NCBI GenBank assembly: GCA_963678705.1
Contig: OY783208.1
Location: 10,704,282 to 10,768,281 of the forward strand
Reading direction: 5' to 3'
DNA: 64,000 nucleotides
From: Panorpa germanica
Lineage: Eukaryota; Arthropoda; Insecta; Mecoptera; Panorpidae
Part shown: piece by piece, positions 3,887 through 52,235 of the stretch
How the letters are laid out: each line of letters starts with the position of its first letter
Numbering within the stretch: position 1 is the stretch's first letter
Position numbers and translations under genes: made by a program
The notes under the pieces: generated by a model
What the model was told of the DNA's origin: nothing
Database searches by the model: none
What the model saw: only the letters and a program-made list of their open reading frames with translations

Positions 3887-6800
3887 CTATCTTGCTTTCT
3901 CCACGTCATAACGATCATTTCCTTTAATTTTCGTTATTTTGTATGGTCCTAAAAATTTAGCTTTAACTTTAGCTCCTGTTGCAAATTGTGTACGTTGTAT
4001 AGCCACTAAACTGTTCAGTGTATACTTTCTTGGTGCTTTACATTTTCTATTGTAGCTAGTCCTGTTTTCTTGCTGAATTTTTAGAATATTACCTTTAGCC
4101 TCTTCTCTCAGCTTCTCACGTTTATCTACAAACTCATTTTGTATTTCTTCTGTAATCAAATCTATTATTTTTATGTCTTGTTTGGTTTTCATTTTAACCC
4201 CAATCATCAATTCAAATGGTGTCATTTTAATACCTCTTTGATAAGTACTGTTTAGCATTAACTGTAGTTTACTTACATGTAAATACCACTTACTAGGATC
4301 TGTTAGGGCTAACTTCGTTTACACAGGTTCAATAATTCATTTATTCGTTCCACCTGGCCATTACACCATGGTACTCCTGTAGTTATTAACACATGTTCAA
4401 TGTTTTCTGCAGTACAATAATCTTTGAAATCTGTTGAAGTAAAAGCTGTACCCCTGTCAGAAATTAACTTTCTTGGGTTTCCGAATACTTCTGCTATCAC
4501 TTTCAATTTCTGTAATACTTCATCAGTGCCTGATGATTTAGTAGGAAACAACCAAACAAATTTTGTAAAAGCATCTACTATAACGAGAATATGTTTATAC
4601 TTTTTTCTTGTTGTTTGTAAAGGTCCTAAATGATCTATATGCCATGTGTCTAAAGGTAAACCTACCTTAGGTATAGAGTTTAAGTATCCTTCTACTTTAC
4701 CTATTTTTCTACTTGCTAGTATACATTCTAGGCAATTATCTATACAGTTTTTAATTTTTTCAGCTAAATCATTGATCCAAAATTCTCTGTTAATTATTTC
4801 TTGACATTTATGCAATCCACAATGTCCTATGTCGTGTGCTTTACGTATTATTTCTGATTGCATGTTACTTGGTACTACTAACAGCTTTTGATCGTCTTTT
4901 AACCTGTATAATAATTCATTTTCTATTATATACTTCCCTGCATAGTTCTTTGCTTGTATCGTCTCTATCTTCTTAATGATGTAATCATCCTTCAGCTGAG
5001 CATTTCGTAATTTCGTTATTACTGATGATTCTATCCAATACATTACTGGATTTCTGCTTAGAAAATCTACATGCCTCATTCTGGAACCTGATCTATGTTC
5101 AATGGTATAATTATATTCTTGTAATAATAAAACCCACCTTGCTACTCGTGTTCCTAAATCTTTTTTCTTAAGCGTCATATTAAATGCATTGCAATCGGTA
5201 ATTATCTTACATGGCTGTCCTACTAAATAAACCCTGTATTTCTTAAGAGCTTCTACTATCGCTAGTACCTCTAATTCGTACGAATGATAATTCCGTTCCG
5301 CTGCAGTGGTTTTTCTACTCATGTAACTAACTGGATGCATACTGTCATCAATATTGCATTTTTGTAGTAACATAGCGCCATATCCATCCTTGCTAGCATC
5401 TGTGTGCAACTCTGTGTATACTCCATATCTAAATATTTTGAGTATAGGGTCTTTTAATAACAAATTTTTTTAATTGTTAAATGCACTTACTTGTTCATAT
5501 TCAAACTTGAAATGACTGTCCTTTTTTAGTAACTCACTCAAAGGTCTTGCTAACTTAGCGAATTGTGGTATAAATTTTCGGAAATAGCCAAACCTAAAAA
5601 GCTTTGTACTTGTTTCGTCGTCTTCGGCATCGGAAAATGCTTGACTGCTTTGACTTTATCCTTAGAGGGACGAACAGTACCTTGTTTAATTACATATCCT
5701 AAGTAATTTATTTCCTTTGCCAGAAATTGACATTTTTTCCATTTAATTTTTAATCCATGCTCAGAAGCTGTCTGTAACACTCATTCAAAATTATCTAGAG
5801 CTTCCTGCAAACTCGTGGCAAGTATCACAATATCATCTAGATACAACACTACTATACCCTTTTGCATTAATTCCCTAAAAATAATATTTACATGTCTCTG
5901 AAATACAGCAGGGGAGTTACAAAATCCGAATGGTGCCCTGTTGAATTCATACTGCACATTTTCTACAACAAACGAGGTATACTTCTTGCAATCCTCACGT
6001 ATTGGTACATGAAAAAAACCGTTCTCCAAATCCAATGTGGTGAATATGCTGCTACCCTGAAGTTTGTCGATTTGTTGTTCAATAATAGGTAGTGGATACC
6101 TATCCTTCATTGCTTGTTCATTCAAACGACGATAATCACAGCAAATTCGTTTTGTTCCGTCCTTCTTGGAGACCAATACTATCTGACTAGCGTAATCAGA
6201 ATTACGTGCTCGAATGATATCCTTTTCTAACCAGTCATCCAGCTGTTTTTGAACATCTAGTCGATCTGCAGGTGGTAGTCTACGTGGCCTAGAAAATATG
6301 GAAGTATCATCTTTCAATGTAATTGTCAATTGAATTTCAGAGTTGAAATACTCTTTTGGTTTGTAATTGTCCACTAACTCGTGAATTTTATTAACAACAT
6401 TTTTATCATTTATATGAGATAAGTCTAGTTCACTTTCTTTATCACCATTGTCTATTTTTAATGTCATTAATTGTTTAACTTCACTTTCATTTTCATCTTT
6501 ATCGTTATAAAGTTTATGAAATTTAACACCTGTGTTATCAATAATCACTCTAGCTTTAGCTATAATGTCCAAACCTATCACCATGTTCATATGCATCGCC
6601 TGTGATGGTAACACTTCAAAATAACTAGCGTAATGTTCTGAATCAATTTCAACGTCCAATCTTATTTTACCTAAAGAATTTACTAGAGAGTTTGACAAAC
6701 CGCGCATTGTTATAACAGAGTCATATAATTTAACATTCTTTAATGTTTTAAAATAGTCCTCGCGCACTGCTGATAAATCACTACCAGTATCTATTAAAGC

Positions 6801-7085
6801 GTTTACATAACTGCTTTTATTAACACAAATTGATTTTATCATTTCCACTTTCATAACATTATGCTCCGATTTAACAGTTTTTATTTTAGTTTTACAGTTT
6901 CGACTAACATGTCCATAATTACCACAAGTAAAACATTTGTAACCCTTGTCTTTATCTGGACACACTTTAAATGAGTGTGATAACGAACCACAATAAAAAC
7001 ATTTAATCTTTTCACCTGTTGTCTCAGTTTTTGTTTTGGTACCTGACCTTGATCTCCTATCATAGTCCTGACTATCCATTTTCAT
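3887..7085 (-). pseudogene. gypsy pol (CCHC knuckles, protease, RT, RNase H, integrase), disrupted
   Basis: In order on the minus strand: two CCHC knuckles (CFYCGSLSHSFKVC, CFTCGNYGHVSRNC), a protease with ALIDTGSDLSAV, RT with FTTLDLENGFFHVPI and catalytic YLDDIV, RNase H beginning YTELHTDASKDGYGA, the integrase zinc site GHCGLHKCQE, and an integrase core with the D of WHIDHLGPL. Lesions seen: an in-frame TGA at 5781, a frameshift near 5597, a TAA near 5467, and a frame change between 4309 and 4258 near the integrase C-terminus. All domains are still recognisable, so decay is moderate. The enzyme would copy the element RNA and insert the cDNA. Confidence 0.9.
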
Positions 7086-7091
7086 TTTTTC

Positions 7092-7709
7092 TTATTGTTC
7101 AAGCTTACGTCTAAGTTGTGCAATATTTTCAGCTCCATACAGTATTACTTTATTAGCTGTACTGTCACGAATACCTGCTATGATATAATCTATAATAGCT
7201 GCTTCTTCGACATCTGCTTGTCGAGCTATGTCTAAAATATCATAAACATATTGACGAAAAGTTTCCTCTGGTTTCTTCAACCTTTGTTGAAGCATTTTGT
7301 GCACCTGTGCACTATTTAAACTCGTATCGAACTCATCGATCAAATACGAATTAAATGTATCCCAGTTTATTATCCTGGTTACAAAATTGACAAATTGTTT
7401 TGCGGTATCAGTTAACAATCTCCTGGCATACAAATATCTGTATTTTGTATCTATTTCCGCCTGATCACAGAAATCATCAAATTGTTTGATCCATAATTTG
7501 ACATTTTTAAGTCTATCATATTTAGGTAAAGCCAATTCTAAATCTAAAAACGTATAATTAGTTTTATTGACTGTTTCATTGTTTACAGACCTGCTATTCT
7601 GTTCTCCAACTTTGCTATTATACGAGTTCATTCTCGTTAATAATTCAGCACGATTTCCACGCTGACTTAGTCCAACGAAGCTAAGTCCTATCCTTGTTGA
7701 CGTTTCCAA
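7092..7709 (-). pseudogene. gypsy gag with SAP-like N-terminus, 5'-truncated
   Basis: The open frame starts at a TTG. No in-frame ATG lies upstream before a stop, and the first Met is residue 27, so the native start is lost. Residues 8-26 read like the second half of a SAP DNA-binding motif (GLSFVGLSQRGNRAELLTRM). The rest is a capsid-type retrotransposon gag (LPKYDRLKNVKLWIKQFDDF, then FRQYVYDILDIARQADV). The first codons fall inside the LTR-like repeat, which shows a deletion that fused LTR to gag. Confidence 0.75.
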
Positions 7710-11907: not shown

Positions 11908-12813
11908 TTATCCCATTAATAACATGAGAGGATTAACGTCTAAATGCGTGTTTTCATGTCTCCTTAAAGAGATTGAACTTAAAAACGTTTTCCTACAGTT
12001 GTCACATAAAACTGGATTAACGTCTAATAGCGTGTTTTTATGTTCCTTTAAATAGGTTGAACTTGAAAACATTTTGTTACAAATGTCACATGAAAAAGGA
12101 TTAACGTCTAAATGCGTCTTTTTATGTACCTTTAAATAACTTGACCTTGAAAATATTTTGTTACAAATGTCACATGAAAAAGGGTTAACGTCTAAATGTG
12201 TCTTTTTATGTTCCTTTAAAGACCTTGAACATGAAAACGTTTTGTTACAAACGTCACACGAAAACGGACGCTCCCCGGTATGACTTCGTTGGTGAATAAT
12301 TAAATTGCACTTAGTAGTGTAGGATTTGTCACATTTATTACAAGAATATAACTTCCTGTCAGAGTGAACACACAAATGTTTTATTATTTCCGGTGCCTTA
12401 TCGAACACCATGTTACAAACATCACAGATAAAATTCTTCTAATTGGAAATTAATTCTTCTACTTCCGATCGTCCACTGCGTTGTGGTTCCGAGAATCTTC
12501 TATTATCATCACCATCCACCGGTTCTTTTGTCGTTCCGGTTCCTTGGCAGTCCGCCGCGGCCTCCAAGTGCTCCTGCAATTTACAGGAATCTTGAAACAC
12601 GCCTCCGCAATATTTACACAGGACAACAGGTGAACTATAGTCAGGTTCATATTTAATATAAACCCCTGGCCACTCTGCTTCTCTATCGGAAGTGACGTCG
12701 ACCTCCTCCTTGACTTGTGGTTCGAATTGAACAATGCATTCCTCTTCTGGTTCTACTTTCATGTTTTCTATTTACAGTGTTTCATTTAACTCTGTTTTTA
12801 TTTGCTGTGCCAT
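11908..12813 (-). pseudogene. Zinc-finger paralogue 2, C2H2 protein with two nonsense codons
   Basis: The frame from the ATG at 12813 carries the family acidic N-terminus (EEECIVQFEPQVKEEVD), an atypical C2HC-like finger (LCKYCGGVFQ) and then C2H2 fingers ending at 11908. Compared with intact copies it has a TAA at the Glu codon just before IENMKV and a TAG at 12439 (ISN, then stop) where paralogues have Gln. The fourth full finger also lost its last His (KEHKNTLL). No intron is evident. With two stops it should make no full protein unless translation restarts at the internal Met of MKVEPEE. Confidence 0.85.
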
Positions 12814-14261: not shown

Positions 14262-14790
14262 ATGGGCTTGTGTCCTATGTCTTAATTTATATAAAAGTGT
14301 ACTATATATTGATAAAGTGGGTTACTAGAACCTTAAATGTTCAATTATTTTTTAATAACTCCTTATATGTTAAGAGATATTAACAATTAAAAAAATCATT
14401 TTGTCTCTTTTATTAAAAAGGGATTCAACGTTGCAGACATTCCAAGTCCATGTGACATCACAATCCTTGTGTAAGGTTACCAACCTTACAGATCATAAAT
14501 CTCTGCTATATGTATTTATATATCAAAATATCAAATATCATTGACAGTTATTTCAAGGGACAATGAAATTTCAATATTATGTCTGCCTTAGCAGGGTTAA
14601 ATAAAATAAAAACTTATTATTCTTTGACTTGACTTGATTATTTGACTACCAACAGCTACAAAACATTACCACCGCACTGACCTACTCAACAAATAACTGA
14701 CGTTAAAAAGCATTCACGTCATACAAATATGGCCGACCATTTCTAGCGATAAAACTACAATTCAAACTTTTAATTGCTATATCTCCGTCA

Positions 14791-15071
14791 TAGTCCAGTC
14801 AATATAGTAAGTCCACCTCGGAATTCGAGATACCCAGCTGTAAGTCTGTAAATACTTGTATATTGACACCCTAAAAGTTGTCTCAAAACCTACATATGGT
14901 AGGGTGTACGCAACTATTAAATTTCAAGGTCAAAGGTCACAAAAGGCGGTTTTTTGCGATTTTTTTTTGTAAATATCTCATTTCTTATGGGTTTTTTGCT
15001 ATTTGTATTTATTATCAACATTGTAGAATACAAAATTCTCTACAAATTTTGTTTAAAAAAATTTTTTATAC
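14791..15071 (+). repeat. Left terminal inverted repeat of the 3.5-kb transposon
   Basis: From CTCGGAATTCGAGATACCCAG onward it is nearly the reverse complement of the right TIR through the inner TTTTATAC. The outer ~30 bases align less well apart from TAGTCCAGTCA. The gene's last codons run into it. Confidence 0.85.
14924..14939 (+). promoter_or_regulatory. Nuclear-receptor-type motif in left TIR
   Basis: TCAAGGTCAAAGGTCA contains a TCAAGGTCA half-site of the FTZ-F1/ERR type and an AGGTCA direct repeat spaced by one base. A near match occurs in the right TIR. Function is inference only. Confidence 0.3.
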
Positions 15072-17450
15072 TTGGACCTCGAGCTTTCAAATCATCCAGT
15101 TTGTCCAGAAATGTTGAAAGAAAAATGTTTGAGTTATCCATTATATATCCTTCTACGTTTGAGTAGGATACATCTCGAGAAGTGATTTGCTGTATTAACT
15201 CATCCAACGTACCATCTTCAATTTTCATGTCTTCAAAAATGATCTTTGATAATGCAAGTCGTACCAATATATGGCCTCTGATGCTTCTTGAGTAAGCGTG
15301 ATCGCTCAGCATCTTGTCAACAGAATTCGGTGCGTATATTTTATTACCAAGAGCTTCCTTAAGGCCACTTCCGTCCATTATGTATCTCCTGCTTCCAAGA
15401 AAAGACATGAGCATATGGAATCCTCCTAATTTCACAACGACTTTACATAAGTTTGAGCTAGAATCTGACGCAGCTACCATTTCACGTGCTTTAGAGTAAA
15501 GGGGTTGATCAAAAGTAATTACACACGATTTTTGTCCGTGTGACTTGGCAATACCGAGAGCGCAAAGTAAAGTTGTGTAAATTGTGTCTACATTACTGGC
15601 AGGATGATCGATAAAAGAAAAAAACATAACCTGAGATGTTGAAAAATTCATTTCATTTTTAGTGAGCTGCTCAAGATAACCGTTCCATCCTGGCAACGAT
15701 GCAATATCCCTCCATTTTCCGTATAACCACAAAAAATCAGTTCCGTTGATTGTTTTTTCTGTTAGTGCTCGACAGTCATGCAGATTTTCAACTTGAACTT
15801 TACTGTATCCAGGTACGACTGGTTTATCGTAAACTTGTAAAGATACATGTGATATGGTTGCCAACTCTTTCGCTTTTGGTTTGGTTGTACATTTTTGTAT
15901 CCGTTCATCGTAGAGAACAGCATTTTTTGGAGTTACTATCTTAATAATCCCCATAACATGAAGAGTATTGTTACCATTAAGAGTCTGGACATTTATATCG
16001 GCATTGTCTCCAACATATTTGTTGGATTTAAATTTAGCGCCCTCTAGTAATTGACACTTCTACTTTTCATTTCTTATTTTTACTAACTGTAATTCTGTAC
16101 TCTGTGATATCACAATGCAAGTGTACTTTTGGTTAATAAAATATACCTGATTAATATAAAATAATAGTTTATTTCTGCTAAATATAATAATATTGTACAA
16201 GTGCACCTGACTCTGATGATAAAATACGAGGCTGTGGGTGATAAACTGCTGAAACTTCATACTGTACTGTATTACTATAAGAAGTTGCAAATCCTAAACT
16301 AGATCAAATATCCAATAGTCTTTTAGATCCATATCTTCTGTGAAGAAATACAGAAAGGCTCAAAAGTAACTGTGATGAAAAAGAACGTTCCCGTATGACA
16401 GCCATAATTGCATGGCTTATTGAAGTACATTTTGTTTTTAAATGATCAATTTGTCCTTTCCTGTTTTTGACGATGACTTCTTCTAACAAATGTAATAAAG
16501 TTTTTGGAATTTCTTGATTAACATTATCCAACATTTTACTAGGAGGTGGATAAGATTTAGTTTCAACTATAGATATTCGGATATCTTCTCTAATAATTGC
16601 TGCTGCAGCTTCTACAATTCTTAGCCTTTCTGCTTCAGGCAAGAGAACTATTTTTTTACTTTCGTACCAAGCTGTTGATAGAATATTAGCTTGAGAAAAT
16701 GATTGTGAAAGCTCCAACTTTCTTCGTAATTACGATATCGGTTAAGTACTTCTGTTGTAGTCTTGTAATGATAGTTTTATCATCTGGCACATACCCTGTC
16801 AAGACATCTTTAAGTTCTTTTAGTGTGAATTGAGAATCATTATTATTTTCGATGTAATTGAAAATCTCTAACATAGCTTCTGTAACTTGATTATCTTGAC
16901 GAGGTTTTTTAAGAGGCGATGATGATGATGATTTATTTGAAAAGTTTGTGAAGCAAGCAGCATGGTACTTCGCTTCAGCAGCGATCAAATCATACTGTAA
17001 AATTATACGACTTTTCACCAATTCTCCGAAATCATCCCCTTGTTCTTCTGCTTTTTTGATAACAGTATCTTTGAACTCAAGAGTACTCACATTTTTTATC
17101 TTCCGCCTGTATTTTTCTCTTTTCTTTTTCTCTGCAGCCTCATCAGCAACTTCGCCACAAAATAAACATTGATTCTTAAAATCAAACACTTCACCTCGTT
17201 TTTTACGGAGTACTAATGGAGAAGTTATAGTTTCTCCTTCTTCTTGTTTCCGTTTTGCTGCTTGGATACAGTTTTTACTAATGTAAACACTTCGGCACTT
17301 TTCATGCACTTTAACAGAGGTTACTGATTTTAAATAATCAATTTTTCCGTCGTTTCGTTCGACACGTGCAGTTCGTAGAGATTTCATACCGCGCACTACT
17401 TCAATAAGCGATTCACCTCCCGAATCTGACTTAGAAAACATAGAAAACAC
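15040..17450 (-). pseudogene. Putative transposase of the 3.5-kb element (GDNAD family), disrupted
   Basis: Three frame segments form one protein of roughly 750 residues. 16686-17450: Lys/Arg-rich start, a CxxC-type zinc motif (NQCLFCGEVADE) and a second Cys/His region (AKYHAACFTNF). 16195-16717: helical segment ending SSLGFATSYSNTVQYEVSA. 15040-16019: begins VGDNADINVQTLNGNNTLH, later ITFDQPLYSKA and VVKLGGFHMLMSFLGSRRY. The GDNAD, FDQ and downstream acidic residues could be a DDE-type triad; that is inference. Lesions: frameshift near 16700, TGA at 16304-16306, and a solo LTR at 16020-16189. No intron is needed. Confidence 0.7.
16020..16189 (+). mobile_element. Solo LTR of the copia family
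   Basis: It starts TGTTGGATTTAAATTTAGCG exactly like the LTRs of the full copia at 27670-32231 and ends GCTAAATATAATA. The 5-bp target duplication ATATT flanks it (16015-16019, 16190-16194). It is shorter (170 vs 210 bp) and diverged, so older than the full element. It splits the coding frame of the 3.5-kb transposon just upstream of the GDNAD motif. Confidence 0.85.
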
Positions 17451-17990
17451 AAATCAGCCATAGTTCTTAAAATTGTACGTCCGTAGTTACCAAGATACGA
17501 TTCAAACTGAAATAAAGAGAAAACGGTCGTAACTATACAATAAAATTGAACATCTGTCCCTACTGGCTATAAATTGAAAGGTCCGTAGTGTATAATAGGG
17601 GCCCGTATAATTCCCAGGTATAATTTTTGACGTAGTGGAAGGATTTTAAAATTTACAGATTTTAAAGAAGATGCACTTAATTATTTTCTATTTAAAATGT
17701 CATTAGTGTAAATGGAAAAATATTTATATTATGATTTAAGTTTTTCCCTTAATTATTTTTTAATTTTAGGCAACGGTTATCAGTATTATTGAATAGATAT
17801 AGATTTCATGCATAAAGAAAATGATAAAATATAATATAATAGTTAATAAAAATTGACAAATATTTATAATCATTGATTTATCGATAGTTCATCAGCTATA
17901 TATGGCGCGTTTTCGACCGGAGGCACCGGTTGACCTGAAGTGATACTGTGACCGCGCGCTCTCCGCCCTCTATCATGAAAACGGTTCACC
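17451..17990. other. Non-coding upstream part of the 3.5-kb transposon
   Basis: This lies between the first Met of the transposase frame and the inner edge of the right TIR. AT-rich except for a GC-richer patch at 17900-17985. It presumably holds the promoter; no motif can be fixed. Confidence 0.5.
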
Positions 17991-18276
17991 GTATAAAAAA
18001 ATTTTTTAAATAAAATTTGTAGAGAATTTTTTATTCTACAATATTGATAATAAATACAAATAGCAAAAAACCCATAGGAAATGAGATATTTACAAAAAAA
18101 GCGCGAAAAACCGATTTTTGTGACCATTGACCTTGAAATTTAATAGATGCGTACACCCTACCATATGTAGGTTTTGAGACAACTTTTAGGGTGTCAATAT
18201 ACAAGTATTTACAGACTTACAGCTGGGTATCTCGAATTCCGAGATTCTTACCTAATTTAAGCTTATGACTAGACTA
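17991..18276 (-). repeat. Right terminal inverted repeat of the 3.5-kb transposon
   Basis: It is the reverse complement of the left TIR with scattered differences and a ~6-base longer outer part, ending TGACTAGACTA before the TCA duplication. It contains TGACCATTGACCTTGA at 18121-18136, the counterpart of the nuclear-receptor-like motif on the left. Confidence 0.85.
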
Positions 18277-18320
18277 TCAATATTTAGATATTTAATAAAA
18301 AAAGACACGCCAATAAGTGA

Positions 18321-19058: not shown

Positions 19059-19790
19059 TTATTCACATGAAAAAGTATTACCGTCTAAATGCGTCTTTTT
19101 ATGTTTCTTTAAAGAGCTTGAATTTGAAAAGGTTTTGTTACAAACGTCACATAAAAAAGGATTAACGTCTAAGTGCGTATTTTTATGTTCCTTTAAAGAC
19201 CTTAAACTTAAAAACGTTTTGTCACAAATGTCACACGAAAACGGACGTTCCCCGGTATGACTTCGTTTGTGAATAACTAAATAATGCCTAGTAGTGTAGG
19301 ATTTATTACATTCACTACAGGGATATAACCTCCTGCCAGAGTGAACACGCAAATGTTTTATTATTTCCGGTGCCTTATCGAACCCCATGTTACAAACATC
19401 ACAGATAAAATTCTTCTGATTGGAAATTAATTCTTCTATTTCCGATTGTCCACTGCCTTGTGGTTGCGGGAATCTTCTATTATCATCACCATCCACCGGT
19501 TCTTTTGTCGTTCCGGTTCCTCGGCAGTCCGACGGGGCCTCCAGGTGCTCCTGCAATTTACAGAAATCTTGAAACACGCATCCGCAATAGTTACACAGGA
19601 CAACAGGTGAACTATAGTCAGGTTCATATTTAATATAAACCCCTGGCCACTCTGCTTCTCTATCGGAACTGACGTAGACCTCCTCTTTGACTTGTGGTTC
19701 TAATTGAACAATGCATTCCTCTTCTGGTTCTACTTTCATGTTTTCTATTTCCAGTGTTTTATTTAACACTGACTTTATTTGCTGTGCCAT
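19059..19790 (-). CDS. C2H2 zinc-finger protein, paralogue 3 (243 aa)
   Basis: An intact intronless frame. Residues 1-55 are acidic with two SUMO-site-like motifs (VKEE, IKYEP); 62-90 hold an atypical finger (LCNYCGCVFQ...H...C); four C2H2 fingers follow from about residue 128 (FICDVCN, YPCSECN, FSCDICD, FLCDVCN). Linkers are mostly THLDVNPF, with one canonical HTGERPF. The protein ends FSCE after a linker, in what would be a fifth finger, so the array is shorter than in paralogue 4. Likely a nuclear DNA-binding regulator; the target is unknown. The start is the ATG of MAQQIKS, shared by all copies. A Helitron piece lies in the probable 3'UTR. Confidence 0.8.
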   Translation of the reverse strand: MAQQIKSVLNKTLEIENMKVEPEEECIVQLEPQVKEEVYVSSDREAEWPGVYIKYEPDYSSPVVLCNYCGCVFQDFCKLQEHLEAPSDCRGTGTTKEPVDGDDNRRFPQPQGSGQSEIEELISNQKNFICDVCNMGFDKAPEIIKHLRVHSGRRLYPCSECNKSYTTRHYLVIHKRSHTGERPFSCDICDKTFLSLRSLKEHKNTHLDVNPFLCDVCNKTFSNSSSLKKHKKTHLDGNTFSCE

Positions 19791-25723: not shown

Positions 25724-26623
25724 TTATTCACATGAAAAAGGCTTATCGTCTAAATGCGTCTTTTTATGTTTCTTTAAATAACTTGACCATGAAAACGTTT
25801 TCTTACAAATGTCACACGAAAAAGGTTTAACGTCTAAATGCGTGTTTTTATGTCGAAGTAATGAAGTTGACCGCGAAAACGTTTTGTTACAAATGTCACA
25901 TAAAAAAGGATCAACTGCTAAATGTGTGTTTTTATGTACATTTAAAGACCCTGAACTTGAAAACGTTTTGTTACAAACGTCACATAAAAAAGGATTAACG
26001 TCTAAGTGCGTATTTTTATGTTCCTTTAAAGACCTTGAACTTAAAAACGTTTTGTCACAAATGTCACACGAAAACGGACGTTCCCCGGTATGACTTCGTT
26101 TGTGAATAACTAAATAATGCCTAGTAGTGTAAGATTTATTACATTCACTACAGGGATATAACTTCCTGCCAGAGTGAACACGCAAATGTTTTATTATTTC
26201 CGGTGCCTTATCGAACCCCATGTTACAAACATCACAGATAAAATTCTTCTGATTGGAAATTAATTCTTCTATTTCCGATTGTCCACTGCCTTGTGGTTGC
26301 GGGAATCTTCTATTATCATCACCATCCACCGGTTCTTTTGTCGTTCCGGTTCCTCGGCATTCCGACGGGGCCTCCAGGTGCTCCTGCAATTTACAGAAAT
26401 CTTGAAACACGCATCCGCAATAGTTACACAGGACAACAGGTGAACTATAGTCAGGTTCATATTTAATATAAACCCCTGGCCACTCTGCTTCTCTATCGGA
26501 ACTGACGTCGACCTCCTCTTTGACTTGTGGTTCGAATTGAACAATGCATTCCTCTTCTGGATCTACTTTCATGTTTTCTATTTCCAGTGTTTCATTTAAC
26601 TCTGACTTTATCTGCTGTGCCAT
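25724..26623 (-). CDS. C2H2 zinc-finger protein, paralogue 4 (299 aa)
   Basis: The longest intact member. It has an acidic N-terminus with VKEEVD and IKYEPD motifs (residues ~35-55), an atypical finger (LCNYCGCVFQDFCKLQEH), then six C2H2 fingers from about residue 128, ending with SWSSYLKKHKKTH and a truncated FSCE tail. Helical residues differ between fingers (SRSLKE, SGSLNV, STSLLR, SSYLKK), so DNA specificity should differ from paralogue 3 while fingers 1-3 are almost identical. Intronless, ATG shared with the family. Likely a nuclear transcription regulator or a TE-repressor-like factor; function is unknown. Confidence 0.85.
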   Translation of the reverse strand: MAQQIKSELNETLEIENMKVDPEEECIVQFEPQVKEEVDVSSDREAEWPGVYIKYEPDYSSPVVLCNYCGCVFQDFCKLQEHLEAPSECRGTGTTKEPVDGDDNRRFPQPQGSGQSEIEELISNQKNFICDVCNMGFDKAPEIIKHLRVHSGRKLYPCSECNKSYTTRHYLVIHKRSHTGERPFSCDICDKTFLSSRSLKEHKNTHLDVNPFLCDVCNKTFSSSGSLNVHKNTHLAVDPFLCDICNKTFSRSTSLLRHKNTHLDVKPFSCDICKKTFSWSSYLKKHKKTHLDDKPFSCE

Positions 26624-27669: not shown

Positions 27670-27879
27670 TGTTGGATTTAAATTTAGCGCCCTCTCGGTA
27701 TTGACACTATTGAATCTTTCTTTCTACACACGGTAATACTGTAGTTAATACTATAACTCTGTAATACCGTCCTTCTTTGTATTCTATACTCAGTGACATC
27801 ATAACTAATGTGTACATCTAATTAAATATAATAAACCTGATTAATATAAATTAATAGTTTATCTCTGCTAAATATAACA
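27670..27879 (+). repeat. 5' LTR of copia
   Basis: TGTTGGATTTAAATTTAGCG ... AAATATAACA, 210 bp, matching the 3' LTR base for base as far as I can compare. Confidence 0.95.
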
Positions 27880-27893
27880 GGTTATGGGCCCAG
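27880..27893 (+). other. Copia primer-binding site
   Basis: GGTTATGGGCCCAG follows the 5' LTR directly. This is the internal initiator-tRNA-Met fragment used by insect copia elements. Confidence 0.8.
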
Positions 27894-28037
27894 ATAAACC
27901 TAGAGACGTTTAGTGAGTGTTTTTCGGAAAAGTGGATAAAGACTTTTAGTGTGGTGAACATAACCTTAAAAAAAAAATGTGGCTGTCGAAACTGTTTCTG
28001 TTCTTCTTTGTGTATAAAGTGTTCTCAACGAATAAAA

Positions 28038-28775
28038 ATGGCATCGAATAATTCACTGGCATTAATCGAGAAGTTAACCGGCCGTGAAAACTATTCGACT
28101 TGGCAATTCGCAGTGAAAACATACCTACAACACGAAGAATTATGGGATTGTATTGAGGTTAACCCGGCGTCACCCGCAGATTTAAAACGTGATACAAAAG
28201 CGAAAACAAAGTTAATTCTTCTGGTTGATCCGATCAATTACGTTCATATCCAAGAGGAAAACACGGCCAAAGGAGTTTGGGACAAATTGGCTGCAGTGTT
28301 CGACGACTCAGGACTTACACGCCGAGTTGGTCTGCTACGTGATTTATGTAACACATCGTTAAGTGGATGTCAAAATATAGAAGAGTATGTGAGCAAAATT
28401 ATGTCAACTGCTCACAAGCTGCGCAACATTGGCTTTAAAGTGGACGACGAGTGGCTCGGGACATTGCTGCTCTCTGGTCTGCCCGAATCATATCAACCAA
28501 TGATTATTGCGATCGAAAGCTCAGGCACAAAAATAACTGCAGACGGTGTTAAAGCAAAACTATTGCAAGATGTTAGAAATTCAGACAACAAAACAACGGC
28601 TTTTGCTGTCAACAAGAAGTTTCATAACAACTCTGTAAACAAGAAGTTCTACAAGGGTCCGAGATGTTATTCCTGCAATCAATATGGACATAAACGCTCT
28701 GAATGCAACAAATACAAAACCATGAACAAGACACAGAAACCTAGCTCTTCTTATGCTGCTGTGTTTGCTGCATAA
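28038..28775 (+). CDS. Copia gag (245 aa)
   Basis: The ATG at 28038 (AAAAATGGCA) begins MASNNSLALIEKLTGRENYS, the usual start of copia-type Gag, followed by the UBN2-like capsid region (LWDCIEV ... TLLLSGLPESY) and one CCHC knuckle (CYSCNQYGHKRSEC). An upstream in-frame GTG at 27951 is less likely. It ends at TAA immediately before the protease. In copia, Gag and Pol are usually one frame, so this stop is either a mutation or a recoding site. Gag assembles particles and binds the RNA. Confidence 0.85.
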   Translation: MASNNSLALIEKLTGRENYSTWQFAVKTYLQHEELWDCIEVNPASPADLKRDTKAKTKLILLVDPINYVHIQEENTAKGVWDKLAAVFDDSGLTRRVGLLRDLCNTSLSGCQNIEEYVSKIMSTAHKLRNIGFKVDDEWLGTLLLSGLPESYQPMIIAIESSGTKITADGVKAKLLQDVRNSDNKTTAFAVNKKFHNNSVNKKFYKGPRCYSCNQYGHKRSECNKYKTMNKTQKPSSSYAAVFAA

Positions 28776-31700
28776 TCCCACTATGGTGATGCTTGGTACA
28801 TAGACTCCGGTGCTTCGGCACATATGACTAAGACCAAGAATATAATTGTAAAGGAAACTACCCCTATAACAAAGAACATTCGTGTTGCTGATAACAAAGT
28901 GTTATCTGTGCAAAGCTCAGGAGATGTCAGCTTAAACATTTATGACCAAAACGGGCAAGAGAATAAGATTCTGTTCACAAATGTCTTATATGTTCCTGAA
29001 TTGGCAACTAATCTGATATCTGTAAGCCAAATTATTAAAAATGGAGGCCAAGTGAAATTTGATACCTCAGGCTGTGTGATCATGAACAGCAAGAATCAAA
29101 TAATAGCAACTGCGAGCATTGTAAACAACATGTACCGACTGAACATGTCTGAAAGCCTAGCGCACATGTCCAGTGTTGAACATAAACAAGATGCTTTTTG
29201 CTGGCACCAGAGGATGGGACATCTTAATTTCCAAACTTTGAAAAAAAATTGTCTGATAACACAGAGCATTTAACTTTCTCAGGAAATACAGAAAATCTGA
29301 AATGCATAACTTGTAAAGAAGGAAAGCAGACACGGTTACCTTTTAAAAGTGATGGATTAAGAGTCACCAAACCACTAGAACTGGTTCATTCTGACGTATG
29401 TGGACCAATGGAAACCCAGTCTCTCGGTGGGAGCAGATATTTTTTAACCTTCCTAGATGAATATTCCAAGAAGATTTCAGTATACTTTCTTCACAACAAG
29501 TCTGAAGTGCTCAGTAAATTCAAAGAATTCAAGCAAGAAGTTGAAAATCAATTGGATGCTCGTATAAAGGTTCTTCGTACAGACAACGGACTTGAATACG
29601 ATAACAAAGCCTTCTCTGATTACCTGAAAGGTGCCGGAATCATCCATCAGACCACCACACCATACACGCCTGAACAGAATGGGACTGCGGAACGTATGAA
29701 TCGGACACTGGTTGAAAAAGCGAAGTGCATGCTACTCAACGCTGGTCTGCCGAAGTTGTATTGGGCAGATGCAATACACACTGCTGCTTACATCATCAAT
29801 CGTTCCCCAACCAAATTCTTAGCTTTCAAGACTCCTATGGAAATCTGGTCTGGACGCAAACCAAATGTTAATCATATGCGTATATTTGGCTGCGAAGCAA
29901 TGGTTCATCTACCTAAAGAAAAACGCAGAAAATGGGATCCAAAGGCTCAAAGAATGATCTTCATCGGATACTGCGACCATACAAAAGGATACAGATTCAC
30001 ATTACCAAATACTAGAAAGGTAATAAAGAGCAGAGATGCTACATTTCTTGAATCCTCAGTGAAAAGAGATTTTGTTTCGGTAGAATTGAATGAGACAGAA
30101 ACTGAAAATGACAAAACAAATACAAGAAAAGAAGATGTAAGAGAAAATGCAACAACGGAAGAGGACAGCTTGATTGACAACGACACAAATTCAGAAAGTT
30201 CATATGAAACGGAGAAAGGAAACAGGTCAACATCCGACAGTGAATACTTACCTAACACCAGAATTGATTCTCCTCCCGTCAGTAATGTGACATTGAGACC
30301 AAGAAATAAAACAAAAAATAAGAATTTCAACTGTCCATATACTGAAGAACATACTCATCTGTGTTTATTCTCATCCTGTGTTCCTGTAACATATGAAGAA
30401 GCAGTACATTCAACAAATAAAAATGAATGGATAAAGTCAATCAATGAAGAACTTGATGCACATAAGAAAAATGAAACCTGGACATTGATAGAAAAACCTC
30501 CAAATGCCAAAGTGATAGGTAGCAAATGGGTGTTCCGAATAAAAGAAGAGTCAACGGGTCCACGGTTCAAATCAAGACTTTGTGCTAAGGGATTTGCTCA
30601 AACCGCAGGTATTGACTACACAGAAACCTTCGCTCCGACTGTAAGGTATGATTCAATACGTTTATTACTTTCCATGGCTGTTCAAAATAAACTTAAAATC
30701 TTACAACTTGATGTAAAAACTGCATTTTTATATGGTGAACTTGAAGAGACTATATTTATGACTCCGCCTGAAGGTCTATCCTGTGAAAACAACATGGTAT
30801 GCAAGCTCAACAAGTCGCTGTATGGTTTAAAGCAAGCCCCCAGAAGCTGGAATAAGAAATTTGACTCAATATTAAAGAAATTTGGCTTCATCAACAGCAA
30901 AGCTGATCAATGTGTGTATGTTGGTCATGTCAAGAATGAGAAATGTTATCTTTGCCTGTATGTGGATGATGGCCTACTATTTTCTAAAACTGAATCCACT
31001 CTGAAAGAAATAACCAAGGAACTACAATCTGTGCTGGAAGTAAAAATATTGAACACACCAAGTAATTTTGTGGGCATGCAAATTGAGATAGTTAGCAACG
31101 GTATTTTTATACATCAGACCAAGTATGTTGAACAACTGTTAGAGAAGTTTAACATGACTGATGCTAACCCGAACACTGTTCCAGTGGACCCCCATGTAAA
31201 GCTACAAAAGGAAGATGGAGAACCAGAGAAAAACTATCCTTATAGAGAAGCTGTAGGTTCTCTTATGCATCTAGCTACAGTCAGTCGACCAGAAATTATG
31301 TTTGCCGTAAGCCTGGTAAGTCGATTTTTAAGTTGCTATAACAAATCACACTGGAATGCTGTCACGAAGATCTTCAAGTACCTGAAGGATACTAAAGATT
31401 ATGGCCTGAAATACTCATCAACATCAGAGCCACCAGCTGTTACTGGTTATAGTGATGCTGATTATGCAAACGATATTGACACAAGACGCTCAGTTACTGG
31501 CTACGTCTTCATAAAGAATGGTGCTGCTGTAACATGGTCAAGCCAACGCCAACAGACGGTTGCTCTGTCAACAACAGAAGCTGAATTTATGGCCGCCTGT
31601 GCTGCAACAAAAGAAGCCATGTGGATAAAGCAAGTGTTAAGTGATATTGGTGAATATAAACAAGACACTATGTGTTTACATTTGGACAATCAAAGTGCCA

Positions 31701-31921
31701 TCAGTGTAATTAAGAATATAAATTTTCATAAAAGATGTAAACATATTGATATTAAGTATCACTTCATAAAAGAAAAATATTCTCAAAAGATTATAGATCT
31801 TAAATCTGTAAGCACTGCTGATCAATATGCAGATATATTAACTAAAGCATTGTCAAAAGATAAATTCCAATTCTTAAGATCTAAACTTGGTATGTTTAAC
31901 TACAACTCTTTTGTTAAGTGA
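28776..31921 (+). pseudogene. Copia pol: protease, integrase, RT, RNase H (one frameshift)
   Basis: In order: protease WYIDSGASAHM (~28793), integrase zinc site (WHQRMGHLNF ... CITCKEG), integrase core with D, D, E in HSDVCGP, RTDNGLEY and PEQNGTAERMNR, RT with KTAFLYGELEE and YVDDGLL, and RNase H with YSDADYANDIDTRRS, EAEFMAACAATKEA and LDNQSAI. The frame is continuous with gag apart from the TAA, then shifts by one base at a run of eight A near 29242 and stays open to 31921. All catalytic motifs are present. A sequencing error in the A run is possible. Confidence 0.9.
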
Positions 31922-32013
31922 TATGTTAGAATATCTTGTACTATAACTTGATTAATATTTTCATGTTTTTTGCACTCAATTAATCATAATTTGTTGTTAG
32001 AATGTCTAAATTT

Positions 32014-32021
32014 AGAGGGAG
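32014..32021 (+). other. Copia polypurine tract
   Basis: AGAGGGAG lies directly before the 3' LTR, as required for plus-strand priming. Confidence 0.75.
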
Positions 32022-32231
32022 TGTTGGATTTAAATTTAGCGCCCTCTCGGTATTGACACTATTGAATCTTTCTTTCTACACACGGTAATACTGTAGTTAA
32101 TACTATAACTCTGTAATACCGTCCTTCTTTGTATTCTATACTCAGTGACATCATAACTAATGTGTACATCTAATTAAATATAATAAACCTGATTAATATA
32201 AATTAATAGTTTATCTCTGCTAAATATAACA
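32022..32231 (+). repeat. 3' LTR of copia
   Basis: 210 bp, same ends and apparently the same sequence as the 5' LTR, then TSD AGTTC. Confidence 0.95.
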
Positions 32232-45720: not shown

Positions 45721-46929
45721 CTAAAATAACAAGATATGGGTTTAAGTACGATTATGAAAGTGCTTCAAAAATATTTAAAACAATATTCAGTAATGGTAGA
45801 TACACTTATAAGGATCACAAGGAACATTATTCTTAAATAACAAATTACATATCATAGTTATTTATTTGTTAATAGTTACGTTGCTGTAATCTCAGATAGT
45901 TTACGTATTATAGTTTTTTTAATATAACAGCTGTACTTAACATTCTTAGAAAATTGTCTAACTGTCAAATTGATGTGGTAATGAACACTGGAAAAGATAA
46001 AGTAATGTAAATAACAGACCTAAAACTAAATAATTTGCTGTTAAAACACCTGTAATAACCATTAAATATAAGATACCAGCATCTATTTGAATTGAATTGT
46101 ACTTTTGAACGCTGTATACTTTTTGTAGCTTTTTTAATAAAACCTCTACATAGTTTAGTTTGGGACTATATAAATAAGCAAATACATATTATTATTGTCC
46201 CGTTATTTTTTAAATTAGATGACTAACAACATTTAATATGTAACATAATATTCCTAGTGAATAATTTGGTGAGATGTCATGCTAGGTGAAGTTTACGTCA
46301 GTTTTTGTTTTAATTATGGGGCATGTTTTTTAAAAGGTTTGAACAAACGAGCCTATTTTATTTATTTTTTACTAATAAACAAAGCAGTTTTATTTAAATT
46401 TTAAAAGTTTTTACGACTTTAAAAGCGTCTAGCATTTTTTTTTCAATAACACAGATACTTGGAACTTGGTTTATTAGGTTAGGTACATATCTGGCTAATC
46501 CCAAAGAAGAAAACAATTTACATACCTATTTAAATTGGGGCACTGTCGGCATTCGGCAAAAATTGTGTTTTTATAAAAATGACATAAAAATAGTAGTTAC
46601 AAATGATAAATTTGAATCTTGCTATCAAACACCCTGTATATTTATGGGGAGTGGATCAACTTTTGATAGTTATTAGCACTTAAATACAACATTTCATAAT
46701 ACTTTTTTTTACAATTCATAATTTTTCTATTTCTCAACTTTTTTCTCATTCTATTCCAACTCTTCCTTCGTTGCTTTCTTATCAACATCTCTTTTTTTGT
46801 ATCTTTATGTGTTCACTTGTTTTCACTTTAACAACAACCGCATTACGATCTGATACAGAAATCTTCTCCTCTGCGATGTCTCCCATTAAATTTCTTGCGT
46901 CGATTGAAATGTATCTTCCGTCCATCAGC
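45721..46929. other. Unassigned sequence
   Basis: No clear gene. A short minus-strand frame at about 46780-46920 (MDGRYISIDARNLMGD) is unrecognised and ends in two stops. Confidence 0.4.
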
Positions 46930-46931
46930 TA

Positions 46932-47569
46932 ATGGGCTTATGTCCTCATTTTTTAGTGGTCGATTTTTCAGTTGTTGATTGAAATTGATGTTAATAAATG
47001 TGTATTGGCGTGTCTATTTTATTAAATATCTAAATATTGACGGAGATATAGCAATTAAAAATTTGAATTGTAATTTTAGCGCTAGAAATGGTCGGCCATA
47101 TTTGTATGACGTGAAATGCATTTTAACGTCAGTTATTTGTTGAGTAGGTCGGTGTTGTGCTAATGTTTTGTAGCTGTTGGTAGTCGAAATAATCAAGTCA
47201 AGTCAAAGAATAATAAGTTTTTATTTTATTTAACCCTGCTAAGGCAGACATAATATTGAAATTTTATTGTTCCTTGAAATAGCTGTAAATAATATTTGAT
47301 ATTTTGATATATAAATACATATAGCAGAGATTTATGAGCTGTAAGGTTGGTAACCTTACACAAGGATTGTGATGTCACATGCACTTGGAATGTGTACATC
47401 GTTGAATCCCTTTAATAATTAAAGAGACAAAATGACTTTTTTAATTGTTAATATCTTCTAACATATAAGGAGTTATTAAAAAATAATTGAACATTTGAGG
47501 TTCTAGTAACCCACTTTATCAATATATAGTACACTTTTATAGAAATTAAGACATAGGACACAAGCCCAT
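46932..47569. mobile_element. 638-bp MITE, complete (ATGGGCTTGTG family)
   Basis: The ends ATGGGCTTATGTCC and, reversed, ATGGGCTTGTGTCC are flanked by TA on both sides. It matches the copy at 14262-14790/18277-18320 and supplies the empty-site control for the 3.5-kb transposon. No coding content. Confidence 0.8.
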
Positions 47570-47571
47570 TA

Positions 47572-47999
47572 AGCCTCTCTGTTTTATAAAGCTGTTTTTA
47601 TTTTTCTTTTCCGTTGCTCTTGTAATTCTTTTCGTTTTCTTGTATTTCTTTTTTTCGTATTTTTTCTTTGTGATCATATTTTCATATTTATGAATATATT
47701 AGCACATAACCAAATAAATTTGATTGCAACCAAACTAAGAAAATATTAACTCTGGCCCGAGAATCGATTCCAAAGACACAAGCTTCAATGCTCTCGCCCG
47801 CTGTATCCTCTTTTATAATTTTTGTTTCTTTATTAACCTAAATATATGGTAAAAAACCCATTTCTATACATTAGCAAGTAACTATTCTATAATGTTTTGT
47901 TACGAATTTGCGAGCATCTAAGCTTACAAAAATTACAGTTGTGAAATATTATTCGGAATCAGCAGAAAAGGTTGCACATACACCCTGTACAAATGTCTC
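47572..47999. other. Spacer
   Basis: A pyrimidine-rich run at 47590-47680 and nothing else recognisable. Confidence 0.4.
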
Positions 48000-48289: not shown

Positions 48290-50231
48290 ATGTTATCTAT
48301 AAGGAAAGGGGCAAAAAAACGTTGTTGTTATGGAGTATGCCGCAGTGATACGCGTAGTAAATCCTTTCAGGAGAATTTATATTATTTTATTAGTTTTCCA
48401 AAACCTTGTTTACAATATCGACGGAAACTCATTAAAATAAGTAAGCAAAAGCACTTAAAAATTTGTCACAAATGTGCTAAATGTGATTTGTGGGTAAAGC
48501 GGTGTGGACGAGGTGATGGTAGATTCAAAGGAATTGATAATGTAAATAAAGACACATATATTTGTTCACTTCATTTTGAAGGAGAATCTGGTCCAACAAC
48601 CGAATATCCAGACCCCATCAGTTGTGTAAAAAAAAGGAATAGTTATAAGGTAAATATATTTAATTAAATATGAATATATATAACTAAATTAAATATGAAT
48701 AAATATGAATATATATATATATATAACCTCAAATAATAAAATTTGTCCTAGGTAAAAGTCACAAGAACCTCGCTGGCTGAAAAATATAAGGAATCAAAAG
48801 ATGTAAGTTCATATAAAAAAAAAAAATTATATCTTACATGACAGAATATTGTAGTGTTGAGAAACAAATTCTTCAATGTTTCAAATTTAATTAAAAAATT
48901 GTATGTTATAGAGTATGAATCAAGTTGTAGATGTTTCAAACCGGTCTGCAGAAAAAATGGTGTGTGAAGATAGACATATCCGTAATGTGGGTATTGATGA
49001 AGGAAAAAACGATGAAACAACCACAGTTTTATTAAATCCAAGTATAACTTCAATATTGAATCCAAACTCAGGTAACGGAGACAGTGACATACTCAGGTCA
49101 AGTGTCACCAACCAAAATGTTGAGATTTCAACCGCAGAGACTTGTGTACAAGATGAAATTACTCCATCCACTACATGCAGTCAAGGTGTTCAAACTGATA
49201 TTAAAGTTCACTAGTAAAAGGATTCAAGTTAGTTTACGTCAAGTTTCAGTGATAGATAATTTCGAAGAATCTTTAAAAAAGAACAGTAAAAAATGTAAAT
49301 TTTACACAAGCTTGGAGTATGATGAAGTAGTTATTTTACATAATTTTGTAAATCCGGGTTGTAAAAGTGTAACAGATAAAATAGGTCAAGAAAAGAAGAG
49401 CAATAATTGTATTAAAAAATTAACATCAATACAGGAATTAATTTTAGTGCTTATCCGATTACGTATGGGCACACTAGTTGAAGATTTAGCTTTCAGATTT
49501 GAAATTTCAACAACTTTAGTTTCTAAAACCATAAAGTCTTGGATACAACATTTATATGATGAATTTACATCCAATTTGAAGCCATTCATGTTCCCTTCAA
49601 AGAAAAAGCTTGCAGAGACTTTACCAAAAACTTTTAAATTCTTAAAAAATATACGAGTTATTGTTGATTGTACAGAATTCCAATGTCAGTCACCGTCAAA
49701 CTTCGAACATCAAGGAAATTTATACTCTTCTTACAAAGCTCGAACTACTTATAAAGCTCTAATTGGATGTACTCCAAATGGAGGTGTATGTTTTGTATCC
49801 GATGTATACGAAGGTATATTTCAGACCGTGAAATTTTTATAAAATCAAATATTTCTGACTTTTTGGAGCCGGATGATTTAGTTTTGGCTGATAGAGGATT
49901 TACCGTTCATGACATTGTTGAATCGAAGCAAGCGCATTTAAATATACCACCATTTTTAAATGGAAGAAAATGTTTATCTCCTCAAGAGGAAATACAGACA
50001 AAGCGGATTGCCAAACAACGTATATACATAGAACATGTTATTGGAAGAATTAAGTCCGTGAAGTTTACGTCCATACATGTCCCAAATTCTTTTTGTGTGT
50101 GCATGCTTAGTAAATTTCCAACCGCCGATTATTATAGATTAAATAATTGGCCTGGAAAATTGCAGTTAACGTCGAAAAAGAGGTTTTTTAGAATAAATAA
50201 GTTTGGTTTATTAAAAATTGTTGCCCGATAA
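48290..50231 (+). pseudogene. THAP-domain PIF/Harbinger (DDE_4-type) transposase, three exons, two frameshifts
   Basis: Exons 48290-48649, 48752-48802 and 48912-50231, all phase 0 with GT/AG sites. Exon 1 is a THAP zinc finger (CCYGVC ... W ... CSLHF, ending PTTEYPDP). Exon 3 has a polar linker, a helix-turn-helix (ELILVLIRLRMGTLVEDLAF, then STTLVSKTI) and a DDE core: VIVDCTEF (D1), LVLADRGF (D2), QRIYIEHVIGRIK (E). Frame changes occur near 49200 (just after GVQTD) and near 49815 (after VYEG); they offset each other, so the outer parts share a frame. All catalytic residues survive, so inactivation is recent or reflects assembly errors. Confidence 0.85.
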
Positions 50232-50353
50232 GTCGCGAAAATACAGTTTTTGAATTGTAATTTACTATAAAATTACAACTGTAACTCTTATACCAATTGA
50301 AATTGTAAATAATATACTTATATAAATAATATATATTTTTTATTTCTTTTGTT

Positions 50354-52235
50354 TTAATTTTTAGATAGATCAAATGGCGCTAAATCACGAGGAATACGCA
50401 TTTCAAAATACTCAGGTGCCAAAACGTTTTGATGAAAAATACTTGTACGATTTAATACTGGTTCAATGAAATTTGCATCGTATTTAATTCTTTCGATGTG
50501 ATAACCTTTCGCTGTCCACACAACAAAGTCACACCACTGTCTTTCAGTCATTGGCATTTGCGTCTGAATTTGATAGTAATATTGATGATTACGTTTTAAT
50601 TTTATACATCTAGGTTTAAGCAAGATACAACAAAATGCATTTCTTTGCTGAGGTGTTAATACATGTAAATCAGTTGCTCCAACGTGTTCTAAAATTTTTG
50701 GACATTTGATTTCAAGCAATCCATATGTTTTATTTCGTACATCTTCAACAAGTCCATCAGGAGAAGCTCCTATCCCTGGAAATTTTGGATTAATCCACAA
50801 TCCACAATTTGATATTTCAAATCCAAACTTTCGAGATGTAAAATCTATATACTTTCTTCTTGCTACTTCTTCATTTTCACGACCATATTTTAACGCTGCA
50901 TTGTCAAAATTTTTATCAATCCACAGGGTATATTTAATCCAATTAAAAATTTGCTCCTTGCTTTTTTCCGAGCTCAGATATTTTATTTTAGAAGCCGTAA
51001 TTAATATTTTTCTATATTTCCACCAATTATCACAATCTGATTGAATTCCAGCAGTTATATCTACTGGTACTTTTTGATCTTTGTGCAGGGAAGCAGTTAA
51101 TTTATACACCAGACTACGTAAAATACCTTTCCTAGGCAAGCTCAGCTCGTAATCATCATAACTTGGAGTAATGACAAGTTCCCATACACTTGGGCGTTTT
51201 TTGGACCCGTGTAAAATTTGTAAGTCACGTGCGAAATTTAATGTTTTCTGTACGTCTGGTTTTACACATTTGATGTTACTACTTTGATAATTATTGGATT
51301 GCTTATTATTTTTTTTGTTATTATCATTTTTATCGATGTTATATAGATAATTAACTTTATGAGCTTTTTTCTTCTTAGACCCTTGATTCCAAACACAAAG
51401 CTAACTTGTACAAGCAACGTTTTCTTAGGCAGCATCTTTACATTGCATCAACAAAACATGCAGGAGAGCAGCAACGTGTGCACAACGTCCTAAACTCGAT
51501 GCTTTACATTCACAGGTCCCTCGCAAAATCTTTCCACTTTCAGCATTTATCATTGCACGAACAGCGTAGCTTGTTTTTACTTTATAGGAAGCTTTGATTT
51601 TACTTTTCAGACAATAAATATCTTGTGATATCTTCGAATCAAAAATATCTGTAACATGGTTACTGTCGACATAAAGCTTTCCTCTTTTCAAAGGCTTAGC
51701 TGTACTATAATCTAATATATTTGGTTCATTTTCCTCATCACTAGAATTATAATTTTCTTTTTCCACTATGCAAGATGAAATTAAATAATCATAAATAGAG
51801 GCTTCATTAAATGATTTTGGTAAATCATTAGATGGAAATTTTTGCCACACATCTGGAAAAGTCAAATTGGTGCTAGTTGCTTGATGATTTTGGTTTTTTT
51901 GAACTTCCTGCTTCAACCATTTTCCTTTATCTAAACCTGGATCTACTGGCACACAATTACGCAGAGCGTTTTTGACACTAAAAGAAATAGAAATAAGAAT
52001 TATTCTTTTTTGTAATTACTTTTACTTATTACTATTAAATTATTATTATATATCCTAACCTCTCAACTAGTTCGGCTTTATTTCCTCCTTGAGGACGACC
52101 ATGGCACTTCAACCATCGTCGTAACTGAACACAGTTGTGGGCTTCTACGGTAGGATGCACTAATGAAGCACCGTCAATTAATTTTTTATTTAATTGCACT
52201 GATATTAGAGGTGATAATACTTGTTGCCCAGCCAT
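50354..52235 (-). pseudogene. SAP-SWIM-YqaJ nuclease gene of the transposon, two stop codons
   Basis: Exon 1 (52235-52060) encodes a SAP motif (LRRWLKCHGRPQGGNKAELV). A 82-bp GT/AG intron follows, and the second exon starts at 51977 (AG+T). It has a SWIM zinc motif (GTCECKASSLGRCAHVAALL) and a YqaJ-type PD-(D/E)XK nuclease with GIGASPDGLVE, GLLEIKCP and YYYQIQTQM. Two stops, TAA at 51427 and TAG at 51403, sit in CKDAA/ENVACTS/LCVWN between SWIM and nuclease. Otherwise one frame runs to 50354, giving about 600 residues. It may process DNA ends during transposition; that is inference. Confidence 0.85.

Follow-up and report, generated by a model that had tools for sequence, protein, structure and literature searches.

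What kind of transposon is a mobile element whose protein belongs to a family known mainly as "uncharacterised"? The question is raised by positions 14791-18276 of a stretch of 64,000 nucleotides from the insect Panorpa germanica (assembly GCA_963678705.1, contig OY783208.1, positions 10,704,282 to 10,768,281), which was analysed as a whole and is called the window below. A first-pass annotation had described a DNA transposon there with long terminal inverted repeats (TIRs). As judged against the published description of AcademX only, this feature is highly likely to be a cut-and-paste DNA transposon of the AcademX type, present as a dead copy with an internal deletion. The window element is a real mobile element, and very probably an ordinary one of an already described group.

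Ends of the element and its target-site duplication

The boundaries of the element were established by comparison with a paralogous site that lacks it (Table 1). The joined flanks were aligned by script with the reverse complement of positions 46901-47600, yielding 539 identities in 565 aligned positions over approximately 47003-47570 of the paralogue. The filled site contains one TCA more than the empty one; the 4 other gaps are of a single base each, and all are distant from the junction. Because the flanks align to an empty paralogue with a single TCA, the boundaries and the 3-bp target-site duplication (TSD) are exact, the length of the TSD being known from one copy, the window element.

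The inner arms of the TIRs (14817-15071 and 18243-17991) share 94.9% identity across 255 bp, the outer 30 bp or so of the left and right arms can be aligned with gaps only, and the terminal 10 bp match at 9 of 10 positions (TAGTCCAGTC and TAGTCTAGTC), the termini being TAGTC...GACTA. These alignments confirmed the ends, TIRs, TCA duplication and empty paralogous site that had been claimed for the element. A 39-base piece of the TIR gave 0 matches in viral contigs.

Table 1. Features of the element, its insertion site and the empty paralogue, in window coordinates
Feature	Position	Strand	Evidence
Probable AcademX-type DNA transposon, internally deleted, non-autonomous	14791..18276	gene on -	TIRs, TSD, empty site, protein homology
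TSD TCA, left	14788..14790		flank alignment; empty paralogue has single TCA
TSD TCA, right	18277..18279		flank alignment
Left TIR	14791..15071	+	inner 255 bp = 14817-15071
Right TIR	17991..18276	-	aligned with left arm
Transposase fragment 1, N-terminal region	16713..17405	-	tblastn, P0124 residues 18-260, 43.7% identity, frame -3
Transposase fragment 2	16190..16696	-	tblastn, P0124 residues 265-431, 51.5%, frame -1
Transposase fragment 3, part of catalytic core	15064..16020	-	tblastn, frame -2, 38-79% identity to 7 relatives tried
Solo-LTR-like insertion, 170 bp, splitting the gene just ahead of the first catalytic D	16020..16189	+	matches LTR-like repeats of the window
Target repeat, left part, into which the element inserted	14262..14790	+	94.7% identity to 47570-47038; terminal motif at 14262
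Target repeat paralogue without the element (empty site)	46932..47569	-	sequence alignment

A broken gene and its protein family

The peptides quoted for the only annotated gene of the element are present in the window, but the gene itself is broken. Using tblastn, we recovered the gene as three pieces spanning three frames, which together correspond to about residues 18-745 of a 1,459-amino acid (aa) relative, P0124. The frame breaks between fragments 1 and 2 near position 16700, and translation revealed an in-frame stop codon within fragment 2, at 16304-16306. Fragment 3 carries the first catalytic D in the motif GDNAD, the second in TFDQPLY, and the motif GGFH. The window copy has no last catalytic residue (E) and no nuclease region, unlike its 79% identical relative P0001, which extends beyond the position assigned to the catalytic E. 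Judged by its sequence, this copy is incapable of making an active transposase and in its present form would be mobile only with transposase supplied from elsewhere.

The coding sequence stops at 15064, no more than about 8 bp from where the left TIR ends on its inner side (15071), a hint that one event produced both the deletion and the long inverted repeat. Because coding stops where the inner TIR starts, the long TIR of the window copy may plausibly have been born from a copying error at the deletion.

The insertion that splits the gene resembles a solo long terminal repeat (LTR) and is flanked by a 5-bp duplication, ATATT, at 16015-16019 and 16190-16194. Two pieces of it, one of about 100 bp with 82% identity and one of 39 bp with 92%, correspond to LTR-like repeats found at 27670-27879 and 32022-32231. 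The peptide EGAKFKSNKY ahead of GDNAD was rejected as a part of the transposase, as it is translated from the insertion, bar the last residue or so. The region 27670-32231 appears to be a complete Copia-like LTR retrotransposon delimited by these repeats, with AGTTC on each outer side and interior open reading frames (ORFs) of 274 and 890 aa that look gag-like and integrase/reverse transcriptase-like by eye.

A 304-aa ORF of the window had 199 protein matches at E<=0.001. Among the best 120 of them, named relatives came from beetles, moths, ants, spiders, a rotifer and a mussel, and many of the nearest named proteins were arthropod. A query joined from three relatives gave 430 matches among 7,996 candidates scored; the best 120 of these include many proteins of 1,400-1,500 aa, members from a coral and one protein labelled rust fungus, and the ORF was found among them on contigs of about 5 kb.

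Three alignments were built, A1 from 95 of these best 120 matches (25, mostly but not solely shorter ones, were removed by hand), A2 with 30 rows from the same 120, and A3 with 58 rows, 7 of which came from the search with the 304-aa ORF. In A1, D, D, the H of GGFH and E are invariant in all 95 sequences, a conservation inflated by the use of top matches as aligned relatives and read at catalytic columns that, like those of the nuclease, were chosen by hand from known motifs. The two D residues are 156-174 residues apart, and D and E 233-248. Two other nearby acidic residues, D277 and D681, are likewise invariant, and the catalytic set was therefore assigned by position. The pattern GxxH lies between the second D and E in 95/95. 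A simple regular expression detected a CXC-like C-terminal pattern in 45/95 sequences (39/79 among those of at least 1,350 aa), and some members are labelled "Tesmin/TSO1-like CXC" in their source records.

Conservation and computed fold indicated a DDE-type RNase H fold in the relatives, in which a FEN1/XPG-type nuclease fold was also computed. The initial proposal of a DNA transposon was right, and both lines of evidence make the "uncharacterised" family its transposase. Against PDB sequences, the window ORF produced two rows no better than chance, the best with E 0.095 to a gasdermin-like protein, and the family alignment none at E<=10; a viral structure library contained no match at E<=0.001. 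Scans of viral contigs with the family alignment and of genome contigs returned 160 and 321 stretches, respectively, that fit a pattern, with no relative among them.

A link to DUF6589 (PF20231), which Pfam describes as a family of unknown function, had also been suggested; it was borne out for the core of some relatives and not for the window ORFs. The match of P0191 has an E value of 4.2e-8 and 32.7 bits, against a gathering cut-off of 27, and those of P0132, P0020 and P0034 are below the Pfam cut-off. DUF6589 overlaps the core in 12/30 relatives at E<=1, the other 18 remaining below that level, and in 0/3 window ORFs at E<=10. No printed connection between DUF6589 and Academ was found in the literature searched, which leaves other literature uncovered.

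Placement in Academ and competing assignments

The Academ superfamily and its AcademX lineage reportedly go back to work by Kapitonov and Jurka in 2010 and by Kojima in 2020. AcademX is the best home for the element because the family combines a DDE core, a nuclease and a 3-bp duplication. The TIRs and TSD are found in the window copy, and the DDE transposase with its downstream nuclease domain in the relatives, the window copy itself being deleted and broken. We infer the Academ name from this combination of features as published. According to PMC10045372, duplications measure 3 or 4 bp in AcademX and 9 or 10 bp in AcademH, which is related to the helicase and nuclease encoded. AcademH was rejected, since the TSD here is 3 bp, and a search with 30 relatives at E<=1 matched 19 families without any helicase family among them. 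The earlier statement that the element was not placed in a known superfamily is thus very probably wrong, as its DDE core, FEN1/XPG-type nuclease and 3-bp duplication fit AcademX as portrayed in that source.

It is unlikely that the element represents a so far undescribed superfamily that stands apart from Academ and whose DDE transposons make 3-bp TSDs and carry a fused flap nuclease. Such a group would agree with the finding that named Pfam transposase families match neither the 3 window ORFs (E<=10) nor the 30 relatives (E<=1), and with a comparison to Academ made by description instead of direct sequence. However, the combination of transposase, nuclease and 3-bp TSD is already published for AcademX (PMC10045372), and the contigs of about 5 kb that carry the ORF fit the mean length of Academ elements in bivalves, 5,565 bp (PMC10294476). 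It is similarly improbable that the GDNAD/DUF6589 proteins form a superfamily of their own, structurally nearest to the P element, whose fused flap nuclease carries out an excision or integration step for which other DDE transposases rely on the host.

The nearest fold to the core is that of the Drosophila P element transposase, from which the family differs by GxxH in place of C/DxxH, by the 3-bp TSD and by the fused nuclease. Descent from a P-element- or hAT-like transposon is very unlikely, as P and hAT elements duplicate 8 bp of target and the 30 relatives have no such sequence match in Pfam. Assignment to P or hAT by motif was also rejected, C/DxxH not being found between the second D and E. 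Likeness to the flap nucleases FEN1, Exo1 and XPG lies in the fold, with 12-17% identity in the aligned parts; the nuclease of this family differs in being fused to a transposase.

A 3-bp duplication would also suit PIF/Harbinger, EnSpm/CACTA or Zator, yet membership in any of these is extremely unlikely. PIF/Harbinger elements duplicate TWA and not TCA, and EnSpm/CACTA termini are CAC, unlike those found here. For all three, the lack of a Pfam transposase family in the relatives and the P element as best structural neighbour of the core argue against membership; for Zator/ISAzo13-like elements, this negative comes from Pfam, a direct Zator profile comparison not being part of the search.

In intact relatives, the TIRs would be bound by a single protein of about 1,480 aa, whose RNase H-fold DDE site would excise the element and insert it into target DNA at cuts staggered by 3 bp. 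The flap nuclease of FEN1/XPG type in the same protein probably acts on intermediates of excision or integration; the catalytic residues and the nuclease role are both putative.

Surrounding repeats and significance

The insertion target is itself a repeat, seen at 14262-14790 and 46932-47569, with inverted ends ATGGGCTTRTGTCC and, in the 46932 copy, TA at each border; it is perhaps a mariner-type miniature inverted-repeat transposable element. Elsewhere in the window, features were judged by eye. Three minus-strand ORFs at 4309-7709 resemble Gypsy-like gag, protease/reverse transcriptase and RNase H/integrase. Related C2H2 zinc-finger ORFs on the minus strand (11908-12411, 19059-19790 and 25724-26623) are apparently a local family with pieces. 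At 49084-51952, plus-strand ORFs are DDE transposase-like and minus-strand ORFs YqaJ-type nuclease-like and SWIM-type zinc finger-like; we take this region to be, perhaps, an ISL2EU-like transposon. At 57390-63851, a 1,415-aa ORF looks like a Rep/PIF1-like helicase protein of the Helitron type; the neighbouring ORF, of 708 aa, includes a repeated unit in which RRFRRETPDQRRTRLEKLK occurs.

As a fossil, the window copy matters little in itself. Through its relatives, a large set of animal proteins now labelled "uncharacterised", arthropod in many of the named cases, could be given a transposase name together with DUF6589, a help in tidying gene annotation. The closeness in structure to the P element, and the FEN1-like nuclease fused to the transposase, suggest in a way that can be tested how Academ elements may move.
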